Positions 24,432-31,475 of a stretch of 32,379 nt of DNA are shown here, in pieces; the first letter of the stretch is position 1; each line of letters begins with the position of its first letter. A program made the translations under genes and the position numbers. Source of the stretch: a virus. A model generated the notes under the pieces. It worked only from the letters and a program-made list of their open reading frames with translations, ran no database searches and had not been told where the DNA came from. The stretch lies in the IMG/VR virus record IMGVR_UViG_3300046170_000051, positions 1 through 32,379 of that record; one strand, given 5' to 3'.

Positions 24432-26254
24432 TTATTTCCAAGAAGTAGCAAAATTACCTCTATTTATGCCTTTTTGAGGTGAATTTTGTGATTTTTGTTG
24501 AGGTTTAGACTCCTGAGTTAGTATTTTATGCTCAATACTATCAAAATTAGGATTTAAGATGTAAATAGCTGCAAAATTGTAGACTAAAGTATCTAATGCT
24601 TCATTTCTTGGTCTTATCTGCTTCCAAGCAAGGGTTTTTCTTCCTCTAACAAACTTAGTGATTCTTTTCTCTGCTGTAAGCTGTTTAAAGTATTCCTCAT
24701 CAAGGTCTGAGCAGAAATGTAGAGTAGTTTGATCAGGATCAGTTGCTAATCTAGCAAAAACAGCTTCTTTTGCACTATCAGTACCAACACCATAAAGAAC
24801 AGCCTTGTTTTTACCAACAAATGTAGGTCTATTAGCTATAGGCTTAGCCAGCAGTAGATAAACCTTTAATTGCAAAGACTCTTCTACCTTGTCTTGGCTT
24901 AGTAAATTGATAAACCATGTTGGTATGGTGTCCACCTGAGTCAATAGTGGTGCAAGATATAGGGTATGATTCTATCTGAATCTGTTTTAAATCTTTTCTT
25001 TAGGTAAGCATCTAAGTCTGACCAGACATTCTGACTATTGGGATCTCCCCAAAATATCTTGTAATCACAAACATAGGCTAAATAATCTTTACCCCATCCC
25101 ACCAATTGCAGCTCTATCCTATCCTTCTGGACATCACATCCAGCAGTTAGAACTAATACTTCTTCTGGAATGTTAGTAAAGTCATAGTTTAATCTGCGTT
25201 CAAGTAGTGTTTCATATTCAACAGCATCACCCTGTTCTTCCCAGCTTTCGCCAAGACTTGTATTTATAAATGTTTTTAATGTTTCTGGATTCTTTTTAGC
25301 TTCTAAGAAGTTCTTTGCCATATCAGCCCATGTAGACCAAACACTATATAACTCTGAGATATGAAATCCTGCTACTTTGTTTGTTGGTTTAGTTGCTATC
25401 CATTCGCCATTTTTAATCATCCACTGTTTTTTAGATTCGCTAATAACTGCACCACATCCATCACATGCGTAATTAGCTGTTTCTGGTTTTTCATCATCCC
25501 AAACTACGTTTTTCCATTTTAAAACCTGTTTATGATTACACTCTGGACAAGGTACATGGTAATAACGCTGATCTGATTCTTCAAAAGCATCTTCAATTGC
25601 AGATATACCTTTTACAGTAGGAGTGCTACACATAAAGATCTTCCTATTCCAGAATGTTTTGGTTCTTGCTATTGCGAGTGATATTGGAGATCCCTCAGAG
25701 CCAGCACTTGTTTCATATCTATCAACTTCATCCATTAATAGGATTCTGATTGGTCTTGAAGCAAGTCCACTAGCACTGTTGCTACCAACTATAGAGATAT
25801 GACCACCAGCAAATGCTTTGTGCATAGTTGTATTACCACTATCTCTGCTTCTAGCATCTTTTACAGAATCTTTTAACTTATCACTATCTCTTATCATGGC
25901 TGCAAGTCTATCTTTACTAAATGCTTGTCCCATTGCTAATGTTGGCTGTACGCAAAGCATTGGGGATGGGTTTTGGTCAATGTAATAACCAATAGCATTA
26001 AGTAAAATTTCGGTCTTACCAACCTGAGAACTAGTCATTACAACTATACGTTCTATGTTTGGATTGTTAAAGGCATCTAAAATACCACGCTGGTATTCAG
26101 CTCTATCAGTTCTCCACTGACCAGCTTCAGCAGAAGATTCAGGTGATAGTCTGCGGTACTTATCCGCCCACTCTGATATTTTAAGTGTTGGTGGAGCTTT
26201 CCAAATCTGATTGGTCTTGCTCACTACTTTGTCTATATTTTTTAGGTATTCCAT
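24432..26254 (-). CDS. terL: Terminase large subunit (lambda GpA type), two excess bases
   Basis: Read with two bases removed this gives 606 aa. ATPase motifs: Walker A SSQVGKTE (75-82), Walker B LLMDEVDRY (172-180). A CPEC and CDGC zinc-finger-like pair lies at 236-239 and 264-267. The nuclease domain starts GCDVQKDRIELQLVGWG and continues IDSGGHHTNMVYQF and RRVFAIKGLSTAGKPIANRP. Frame breaks occur at GGG 24962-24964 (+ strand) and near 24844-24850. It cuts concatemers and drives DNA into the head. The start overlaps the small subunit by 74 bp; a GTG ten codons in (SKTNQIWKA) is an alternative. Confidence 0.9.
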
Positions 26255-28450: not shown

Positions 28451-28977
28451 ACTTCATTGCCCCAAACATCCCATCCATTTTTTTTATCTCTAGCAAACAT
28501 TTCTAAATAATTATCAGGAGACATTTCTTCTACCAAATCATAAAATTCTTTAGGTTTTGTCGAGTGCTTTCTAGGTGCGTTAGTGTTTATCCAATTTAAC
28601 TTTCCGCATCTTTTAAATTTTTGCATTGGTTTTTTATAAAATCCCAGCAAACAAAATTCAGTAGCAAACTTGTAAGCAAAGTTTGGAGTCATGCCATTAT
28701 GTTTGTTCCAAACTAAAGTTAAGTGATAATTAACATCCCATGCTTTAAGAACATCAAAAGTATATGGAAGCATTTTGTTAGTAGTCCATGTATATACATG
28801 ACATCCTAAATTAGCAACATCTCCTATTGGTAATGACTTTATTTCATCCATAGTCATTGTTGGATAATCTAATTTGTTTGCTTGTTTTTTTCTTCTGATA
28901 TTTTTACCAGACATACTTATATTCCAAGGCGGATCAAGAACTATGGTGTTATATTTTTTGTTTGGAAATTTAAACAA
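28447..28977 (-). CDS. MT-A70-family adenine-N6 DNA methyltransferase
   Basis: The 176-aa product has the catalytic DPPW motif (15-18, in TIVLDPPWNI), a MTMDEIKSLPIGDVAN segment and YTWTTNKMLPYTFDVLKAWD, followed by LTLVWNKHNGM, all typical of phage MT-A70 enzymes that methylate adenine N6. The C-terminal part has KHSTKPKEFYDLVEEMSP and ends NGWDVWGNEV. It starts at a TTG (28977), since no ATG precedes the DPPW motif. It probably protects phage DNA from restriction or marks it for regulation. The second methyltransferase, C5 type, lies at 783. Confidence 0.9.
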   Translation of the reverse strand: MFKFPNKKYNTIVLDPPWNISMSGKNIRRKKQANKLDYPTMTMDEIKSLPIGDVANLGCHVYTWTTNKMLPYTFDVLKAWDVNYHLTLVWNKHNGMTPNFAYKFATEFCLLGFYKKPMQKFKRCGKLNWINTNAPRKHSTKPKEFYDLVEEMSPDNYLEMFARDKKNGWDVWGNEV

Positions 28978-29476
28978 AACTCACTCGCTTAAACATAATG
29001 TCCAGATTCTTTTTCTTAAATGTTTCTTTGGCTGATAGATAATCTGGGTGCATAAACCTAAACAACTCTTCAACACTAAAAAGCACTACATCTTTATCAG
29101 ATCCATGCAATTCTTTTAATCTAGGTATTTGTGTATCTGTATCACAAACAATAGCGATCTTGTTGTCTCTGTATTTGTAGCATCTAAAATCATCTTCTAA
29201 TTTGCTGTAGCCATTATCAGCAGCTTTATCTACCAATGCAGAATATGCTCTATACATCATTTCAATCATCTCAATCTTTTTCTTTACAGGTGATTCAATT
29301 AAAGATTCATCAAATAACATTTGTGCTTTACAGAACTTAATCTCTAACTGAGCATCAACACATTTAAATAATCTCTTCTTACCACCCCATTCACGTTCTA
29401 TAGAAGTTTCATAAGATCTAAAATCTTTTAATTGTTTTTCTAATGTTTCTTGTAAATAATTTTTCATAGGGATCAT
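28970..29476 (-). CDS. Hypothetical protein, 168 aa
   Basis: Helical, charged product (ETLEKQLKDFRSYETSIEREWGGKKR, ALVDKAADNGYSK) with a beta-rich middle (KIAIVCDTDTQIPRLKELHG and KDVVLFSVEELFRF). The first ATG is followed by another three codons later; neither has a clear ribosome site. It is the first gene downstream of the palindrome and repeat array that follow the primase-helicase gene, and overlaps the methyltransferase gene by 8 bp. No family is recognised. Confidence 0.5.
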   Translation of the reverse strand: MIPMKNYLQETLEKQLKDFRSYETSIEREWGGKKRLFKCVDAQLEIKFCKAQMLFDESLIESPVKKKIEMIEMMYRAYSALVDKAADNGYSKLEDDFRCYKYRDNKIAIVCDTDTQIPRLKELHGSDKDVVLFSVEELFRFMHPDYLSAKETFKKKNLDIMFKRVSFV

Positions 29477-29478
29477 TT

Positions 29479-29526
29479 ACAGGGAACAGGGATATACCTA
29501 TAGGTATATATCCCTTCCCTCCCTGT
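29479..29526. repeat. Long imperfect palindrome with perfect core
   Basis: Core ATATACCTATAGGTATAT (29492-29509) is a perfect 18-bp palindrome. Outer arms extend the symmetry, ACAGGGA with TCCCTGT-like sequence on the other side, to about 48 bp. It lies just before the start at 29476. Operator, hairpin or part of a replication origin. Confidence 0.6.
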
Positions 29527-29588
29527 TAATTGTTGATTTTGGTATAAAACTTCCCTCATTCTTCCCTCTAACTTCCCTCTACTTCCCT
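29514..29588. repeat. CTTCCCT repeat array with helical spacing
   Basis: Five copies of CTTCCCT on the plus strand start at 29514, 29550, 29561, 29572 and 29582. The last four are 11, 11 and 10 bp apart, about one helical turn. The last overlaps the primase-helicase end. Iteron-like protein-binding array, possibly part of an origin with the palindrome. Confidence 0.6.
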
Positions 29589-29589
29589 G

Positions 29590-31475
29590 CTATTCAAACT
29601 TAGGAGCTAATTTATGGTACTCAGCAGATTGATATCCAACTGTTTCCAGATACTTAACTTCCTCTAATTCAACTAATTTTTTTAATAATTTCTTAATACT
29701 TTCAACTGACATGATGTTTCCATTGGAATCTCTTACCTTGTCTTTTAGATCTTTTGGGAAAAAGTAATGATCTTCAGGGTGGTCTTTATCAGCAAAAATA
29801 GACTCACGTTCTAATGCTTCTAATACTAATTTTTGTTTATATGTCAGCTTATCTTTAGACTTAAAATCTATGTCAGTAAGCTCTAAGAACCCACTGGTTA
29901 GTTCCTAATCCTTCACCTATTAGATCTACTTCTTTAAATACAAAGTTCTTCTCAGACATTCCCTGACCATCTTTATTGAGTGTTTGTTGAAAAGATACAA
30001 ACATCTCTTCACTCTTATCTGTTCTTTGCACTTTAAATTCATAATCCTAATGAAGCACCAATAACACTTGATCCTCTTGCTCTATTACCTTCATGCCCAG
30101 AATGATGAACAATACATACGTTGCAGCCATATACAGATATAAGACCATCTAATTGATGGATAAAATTACCTACATCTTCTGCTGAATTCTCATTACCACC
30201 ACCAAAGTTTCTCTGGAATGTATCTACTACTATCATTCCTATATCACCCTCAATAGCTTTAATTGCTTCTATCTCTTGGGTTAATCTCTCAAAATCATCT
30301 TTATCACCAATTCTTACAGCTCTATCTGATAGGTATAAAGGTATCGCCTTCAAGCTGTATTGTGCTTGTTGCCAAGCTGATAGCCTTCTCTTAACACCTC
30401 TTTGCCCTTCTCCACATATATATAGCACTGGCTTTTTGAATGATTTATTCCCATAAAAGTCTTGACCAGATGCAATAGCACAACTCATAGCAATAGCTAC
30501 AAATGACTTACCGCTTTTAGGAGCACCATATATCTGCATTAAAGACTCAGTTTCTACAACATCTTTAATTAACCAATTAGGATTAGTTACCTGACTTAAT
30601 ACTTCATCTGCTCTGGTAAAGGTTATAGATCCCTTTTCCTTCTTTTCTTGTACTGTTTCTATGTATTTAGTTAATGAATCATGCGTAAAATCACCACGTT
30701 CAGCAGCATCCCATAAATCATCTTTATCATTAAATGTTTCAGGTGGCTGTATAACCTTAACTTTAGATCCATTTGCCTTTAGTTCTTTAGCTATTTCATT
30801 AGCACACTTAATACCAGCTTCATCATTATCAGCCCAGACATAAACATCTCTACCATAAATACCTGACCAATCTGTTTTATTCCATCCTGTAGCACCACCA
30901 TGCCAACAACAAACGTCATAATCCCAGATACGTTCTGCTCCACGCATTGCTTTCTCACCCTCATTAACTATTACAGGTTTCTCTGGATGTTTGTTTGTTA
31001 TATATAGTGGTAATAAACCTTCTGGTCTTTTCATTGACCAAGTGCCATTAGGATTTAAGCTAAAAGGTGCATACTTCATAGGCAAAGCTGAGTGCCTTAA
31101 CACCATAAAGTTATCTGCATATTTAACTTTAACTTCTGATTGTCTATATAGATCAACCATTTGCTCCCTAGAGAATGATCTTACTTTACTGGCAATAGGG
31201 GTACTGCCATTTACAGTGGAGCTAGGGGTTTGTAAAGTAAGATCATGACCAAACTGTTTTAAAACTTCTGAGACATCTTTTCCATACCTTTCGATTAGCC
31301 ATTTAACACCACCGCCTTGACCTTCTTCAAAGTCATAGAACTGACCAGTCTCAAGGGTAAATACTAATGAACCTTTATTACCCCATCGCCATTCATCTGA
31401 CTTCTGGACTTTTGGTTCACCTAGTATTTGCCTTGCTACATCAGGTGCTATTTTTTGCCAATCGTAATCTTGCAT
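29590..31475 (-). CDS. Toprim primase - RecA-like helicase fusion, two excess bases
   Basis: Read with two bases removed this is 627 aa. N-terminal part has a primase-like fold with Toprim motifs (VNEGEKA at 170-176 and WADNDEAG at 214-221). A RepA/DnaB-type helicase follows with Walker A GAPKSGKS (317-324), Walker B-like MIVVDTFQRN and the HHSGHEGNRARGSS sensor region. After the breaks the frame resumes YEFKVQRTDKSEEMFVSFQQ and then ELTDIDFKSKDKLTYKQKLVL, with a C-terminal DNA-binding-like end (SVESIKKLLKKLVELEEVKYLETVG). Breaks lie at CC 30046-30047 and CCC 29890-29892. It primes and unwinds phage DNA; the SSB-like gene precedes it. Confidence 0.85.

Follow-up and report, generated by a model that had tools for sequence, protein, structure and literature searches.

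What is the function of a short stretch of phased repeats and palindromic DNA lying between the primase-helicase gene and the next conserved gene of a marine phage, and which protein reads it? The stretch was found in the IMG/VR virus record IMGVR_UViG_3300046170_000051, the whole of which (32,379 nt) was analysed and is called the window here. The phage genes of the window are on the minus strand, and the element, which runs from 29588 to 29479, is described on that coding strand.

Anatomy of the element and its neighbouring genes

The primase-helicase gene ends at 29590 and is followed, after one base, by four copies of AGGGAAG, of which the first (29582–29588), also kept in relatives, lies 10 bp from the second (29572–29578), and the third (29561–29567) and fourth (29550–29556) follow at steps of 11 bp. 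Next come TTTTATACCAAAATCAACAATTA, in the AT-rich spacer (29527–29549) that contains the word-independent AAATCA(AC)AATTA and is a candidate unwinding element, and then ACAGGGAGGGAAGGG, the inner hairpin ATATACC-TATA-GGTATAT (29492–29509; stem ATATACC, loop TATA) and CCCTGTTCCCTGT, before ORF168 starts at 29476. From ACAGGGAGGGAAGGG to CCCTGTTCCCTGT, sequence and DNA folding define a region (29479–29526) that is both the proximal word block and an imperfect palindrome of 48 bp; it holds a fifth iteron (29514–29520) and inverted AGGGA copies, the inverted copies being in the 3' arm of the hairpin. The preliminary description of this DNA had already recognized the 18-bp perfect palindrome, ATATACCTATAGGTATAT (29492–29509), within the 48-bp imperfect one, and had counted five repeats; CTTCCCT indeed occurs exactly five times in the window, always at the element, starting at 29514, 29550, 29561, 29572 and 29582 (spacings of 36, 11, 11 and 10), with four copies at 10–11 bp steps. 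The same description had the primase-helicase stop codon overlapping the last repeat, and this was not borne out: the stop (29590–29592) is 1 bp past it.

The position of the element behind the primase-helicase gene (29590–31475, minus strand) also stood, provided that two frame breaks in the window's copy of the gene, near 30040 and about 29910, are sequence errors, as only then is this stop that of the helicase. The gene is an intact 627-aa open reading frame in 99%-identical relatives, and the helicase and terminase genes are both unbroken in relatives that are 96–99% identical (L003, L004, L006); since the genes are intact in such close relatives, the breaks point to errors in the window. 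In the window, frame breaks likewise interrupt the terminase large subunit gene (24432–26254). The helicase protein matched the Toprim family weakly and AAA_25 strongly, its Foldseek matches were Twinkle, T7 gp4 and RSF1010 RepA, and a profile search related its core to RSF1010 RepA (E 5.8e-10). In the AlphaFold model (mean pLDDT 84), where domain names were assigned from secondary structure and family matches, a Toprim half is followed by a RecA-like core, then by a beta-rich part, and lastly by the C-terminal winged helix (residues 536–627; 29593–29868, minus strand), which is also marked out by covariation. No HUH or Rep_trans nicking domain, such as the initiator of a rolling-circle origin would have, was found in the primase-helicase or in ORF168.

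Five copies of the word alone are not rare, being reached in 24 of 100 shuffles of the window; their clustering is. We defined a composite signature as a hairpin with at least four direct copies of a word within 150 bp and an inverted copy in its 3' arm. It occurs once in the window, compared with a mean of 0.013 per dinucleotide-shuffled window, and in its stricter form with at least five copies it was found in none of 150 shuffles, confirming that the clustered repeats and palindrome are real and far above chance. The signature detector gave 16 scattered matches in 724 kb of background loci (80 loci from a pattern scan of viral contigs for a triple CTTCCCT). It flagged the element in most loci of the core family, about 90 bp past the helicase stop, and overlooks elements that are visible by eye in four loci (L017, L134, L149 and L172). 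A terminator scan of the element, in which a T-tract was sought after the hairpin, returned no terminator-like match, and a DNA similarity search against cultured phages returned no match.

Layout and word of the element in relatives

Relatives were collected via ORF168 and via the helicase, and the DNA past the helicase stop was compared. The same layout was detected in nearly all core-family loci, either about 90 bp past the helicase stop or past one inserted gene, and the preliminary description's proposed check, conservation of the repeat spacing, thereby came out in its favour: the layout is kept with about ten words, at steps of 10–12 bp for most of them, but the word itself differs. It is AGGGAAG (word A, as in the window), GTGTGTA (B), TTTTGGTTTGG (C), TTGGGTGT (D), TGTCTAT (E), TGTACCT (F), GTGTATGT (G), CTGCATA or CCGCATA (H), GGATTGG (I) or GGTTC (J). 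AAATCA precedes the proximal block in elements with words A, C, D, F and G, and in looser forms in others, and ATGAT follows the hairpin in those with words A, D, F and G. A methyltransferase gene and other small genes are inserted on one flank or the other in some loci (L006, L015, L017, L110, L111, L114), so that the element has an insertion slot on either side. In L120 and L164 the helicase frame (653 aa) extends through the iterons, and there the repeats are therefore also coding.

The hairpins of class A exist in eight stem variants, each of which has Watson-Crick pairs at 7 of 7 positions, and every pair is represented by at least two pair types; these were counted on hairpins anchored by hand because the MAFFT alignment misplaces some class A apexes. 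As all stem variants compensate, it is the pairing rather than the sequence that is conserved. The apex is closed by C-G in 30 of 39 hand-listed combinations of word and apex, against 17 of 97 background hairpins of core-family loci, a rough comparison in that the hand-made list draws many of its words from phages of higher GC content. Common loops are TATA, TTTA, GTA, TTA, TAA and TAAA; loops of the T..A and GNA types favour DNA hairpins.

The word follows the C-terminal part of the helicase. Among 34 non-redundant helicases, sequence identity predicted a shared word with an AUC of 0.986 for the core, 0.983 for the beta part and 0.974 for the winged helix, while the primase part (0.806) and ORF168 (0.808) were weaker predictors. 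The pattern is also seen in natural swaps, pairs of phages that have exchanged words. Between L120 and L130 (words A and B), identity is 100% in ORF168 and 91% in the primase part, but 44% in the core and 8% in the winged helix; between L121 and L128 (A and D) it is 98% in ORF168, 84% in the primase part and 37% in the core; and between L108 and L126 (A and B) the corresponding values are 99%, 86% and 49%. Similar swaps separate L106 from L007, L113 from L020 and L118 from L152. The exchanged block begins near helicase residue 240 and reaches as far as the end of the element, and on these sequence comparisons helicase and element look like a lock and key swapped as a unit.

The word and the helicase C-terminus adjoin each other, and their association is therefore partly one of linkage. 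Linkage alone is disfavoured, however, because the match between word and helicase is kept in two situations: L126 and L013 share a word and have cores that are 100% identical despite an intervening winged helix that is just 31% identical, and in L006 and L017–L019 inserted genes part the helicase from the element with the match intact. Given that winged helices associated with the same word can be as little as 31% identical, the core, beta part and winged helix are not cleanly separable as the determinant. Within the winged-helix domain, the largest contrast between same-word and different-word pairs is at residue 595 (codon 29689–29691, minus strand), inside the predicted recognition helix (590–602). 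Among pairs with winged helices 20–50% identical, 41 pairs share a word and 93% of them also share this residue, against 11% of the 127 pairs that differ in word; the contrast is a lead only, since these pairs are interdependent and come mainly from words A and B. It is K with word A, N with B, S or G with C, D with D and E, K with F, Q or E with G and T with H, and may be a residue that reads the word.

ORF168 (28970–29476, minus strand) is the next conserved gene after the element, a position that it keeps in nearly every relative, even where identity falls to about 20%. It belongs to a conserved phage family whose relatives are unnamed phage proteins only; its model is confident (pLDDT 90), and its fold had no match in the PDB. 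The preliminary description had listed the ORF168 protein among the candidate binders. It is ruled out as the iteron binder, being 94–100% identical between phages with different words, and a protein that is near-identical alongside different words cannot set word specificity; perhaps it is a replication accessory protein. The SSB-like protein, another of the candidates listed, was not linked to the element, and no separate iteron binder was seen among the neighbouring genes; the primase is fused to the helicase.

The element as a probable replication origin

Phased direct repeats of one word, together with a neighbouring gene that covaries with them, characterize iteron origins, and both were observed here. 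Layout and phasing are conserved over many words, and a change of word goes with a change of helicase, so the 'origin or control locus' of the preliminary description is well supported by comparison with relatives; its proposal of a loader or a repressor as the binder is not. We consider it probable (roughly three chances in four), from sequence comparison, that the element is the replication origin of the phage and that its iterons are the binding sites of the primase-helicase that the phage itself encodes, with the C-terminal winged helix as the likeliest means of contact. The winged helix would contact the four phased iterons that follow its gene, the primase-helicase would form hexamers at the AT-rich spacer and at the inverted words, and opening of the DNA would follow helicase loading. 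The hairpin, either single-stranded or extruded, may mark the site of first assembly or loading, or of priming. No separate loader would be needed in this scheme, because one chain would bind the iterons, be loaded and open the DNA. GC skew, which had been suggested as a check on the origin, was uninformative: no clear switch was detected at the element in the window, where genes all on one strand deprive the measure of its value, or in the cultured phages CRP-406 and RHph_Y3_1, and in XX1924 there was only a minimum 2.5 kb from the element.

The alternative that survives best, although we regard it as improbable, is that the element is not an origin but an operator or autoregulatory site, through which the helicase or another regulator controls ORF168 and the following genes or confers superinfection immunity. 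In most relatives, and in the window too, the palindrome stops just ahead of the start of ORF168, as an operator might, and words that differ among close relatives resemble immunity operators. Yet inserted genes separate ORF168 from the element in L114/L115 and L120/L164, scanning the element revealed no promoter-like site, and no repressor gene was found adjoining it. Moreover, a compensated hairpin with a short loop exceeds the need of an operator in double-stranded DNA, and the word tracks a replication helicase.

It is considerably less likely that the element acts as RNA within the helicase-ORF168 mRNA, as a hairpin that regulates the translation or the stability of the message, the AGGGA copies being ribosome-binding or anti-ribosome sites. 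A location between two genes, where it would be transcribed, and beside a start codon is what such an element would have, and the AGGGA repeats are purine-rich; however, TGTACCT, CTGCATA and GTGTGTA do not resemble ribosome-binding sites, and the helical phasing of the repeats in double-stranded DNA would be left unexplained. Folded as RNA the element was no better than its shuffles (z -0.70, 49/200), whereas folded as DNA it was somewhat better (z -1.92, 7/200), which weakly favours a DNA hairpin, and the element had no match in Rfam.

Equally slight is the chance that the element serves partition, incompatibility, packaging or some other aspect of maintenance. Iterons occur in partition and incompatibility loci too, and the element is present in a single copy per genome, but no par genes were found adjoining it, the terminase genes are located elsewhere, and the block that is swapped consists of helicase and element, not terminase and element. 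Finally, the possibility that the repeats arose by chance or in assembly, for which the apparent frame errors in other genes of the contig could be cited, is already refuted by conservation, as the element is identical in independent contigs (L002–L005) and a composite signature of such strength is absent from shuffles.

Known systems, distant relatives and hosts

Iteron origins adjoining an initiator gene are a known kind of system, of which the element would be a variant. The lambda ori resembles it in having four iterons, an AT-rich part and an inverted repeat, but is located inside the O gene, and O is an initiator that requires P and DnaB. The alpha helicase of phage P4 belongs to SF3 and is not RepA/RecA-like, unlike the AAA_25/RepA-like core found here, and P4 has two separate repeat regions. 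P4 alpha is nevertheless similar in that a Toprim-type primase, a helicase and an origin-binding domain are joined in one protein that is used with short repeats (in part PMC4234260); in the present phage, a weak Toprim match, the AAA_25 match and the AlphaFold model indicate that a single chain combines a primase with a helicase and a winged helix. RSF1010 (IncQ) initiates at iterons and short priming hairpins (PMC4234260), and its oriV is comparable in its iterons, its small hairpins (ssiA/ssiB) and the hexameric helicase core of the RepA family; unlike here, RSF1010 uses separate RepA, RepB' and RepC proteins for unwinding, priming and iteron binding, and its origin is not placed behind a primase-helicase gene. 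In the pRN1 plasmid and the BIP-1 phage, a primase-helicase-winged-helix gene precedes a structured origin whose sequence diverges with its fold kept (PMC4234260), but the primase is archaeo-eukaryotic, the helicase is SF3, the stem-loop is long and there are no iterons. SaPI Rep and SCC Cch2 use a C-terminal domain to bind iterons that immediately follow the genes encoding them (PMC7581432), an order of initiator helicase gene and iterons that is also seen here; these helicases are not Toprim/RepA-type fusions, the inverted repeats flanking the Cch2 site are dispensable for binding, and a hairpin with inverted iterons is not described in the text consulted.

A parallel for the swaps is the Vibrio PLE RepA/ori, in which close relatives have exchanged the iterons along with the DNA-binding domain of the initiator (PMC8263062), although the RepA_N initiator has neither helicase nor primase and two replicon types among five PLEs contrast with about ten or more words here. 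PLE modules of origin and initiator domain swap under attack by an origin-cutting nuclease (PMC8263062), and by analogy such pressure is a plausible reason for the word changes in these phages. Cassette swaps between near-identical phages would plausibly serve as escape from co-infecting rivals, satellites or origin-targeting nucleases. Tentatively, and with somewhat less than even confidence, we propose that these phages represent an undescribed, widespread class of self-contained origins, in which a genome-specific word is read by the fused Toprim primase, RepA helicase and winged helix, largely through a few recognition-helix residues, priming takes place at a hairpin with a conserved apex, and the helicase end and origin are swapped as a cassette; the searches made of open-access literature showed no description of such a class. 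If the origin reading is correct, a sequence pattern alone would locate the origin in many uncultured marine phages, possibly including SAR86 phages. The natural swaps of word and helicase would provide a ready-made experiment on how initiators evolve DNA recognition and on what causes origin specificity to change, and the arrangement of element and helicase suggests origin firing by one protein without a loader.

A comparable anatomy was observed behind the distant Toprim/RepA helicase genes of the cultured phages Roseobacter CRP-406, Alteromonas XX1924, Salicola CGphi29, Burkholderia BcepGomr and Rhizobium RHph_Y3_1. In the cultured Verrucomicrobia phage P8625 repeats lie behind the helicase gene, and the record ends within them, before any hairpin could be seen. 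An origin in CRP-406 and its relatives receives no mention in the text consulted of PMC12629253. Many contigs resembling XX1924 and RHph carry the element, with words such as GGTACA, GGTAAC, GGGTCA, CGCACC, AGGGGC and TTCCCA; it is absent behind the helicase in three further relatives examined (L175, L179 and L181), and the composite signature was almost never found with distant helicase relatives in contigs of bacterial genomes. A freshwater clade of XX1924-helicase relatives (L189–L198, L203, L216 and L230) has helicases that end in a different C-terminus, and the flanking DNA retrieved contains no element, so that the origin of these phages, if any, must be elsewhere. Across 32 C-terminal types of the XX1924 family, the element was present in 17 and absent in 3 with one type, compared with 2 and 10 with the other (Fisher p 0.0002), where the types were split by a simple regular expression picked after the sequences had been viewed.

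A close relative of the phage, with a helicase 85% identical, was also detected in the SAR86 single-cell genome AG-390-L11 (L284, L365 and L367). Its contig of 72,734 bases holds the phage relative together with the SAR86 chromosomal genes fab, his and mfd, which suggests a SAR86 host for this relative, and perhaps integration, with a chimeric assembly as a possible alternative. For a phage family that may be the same one, PMC12629253 reports almost no integrases and predicts SAR86 hosts for low-GC members.
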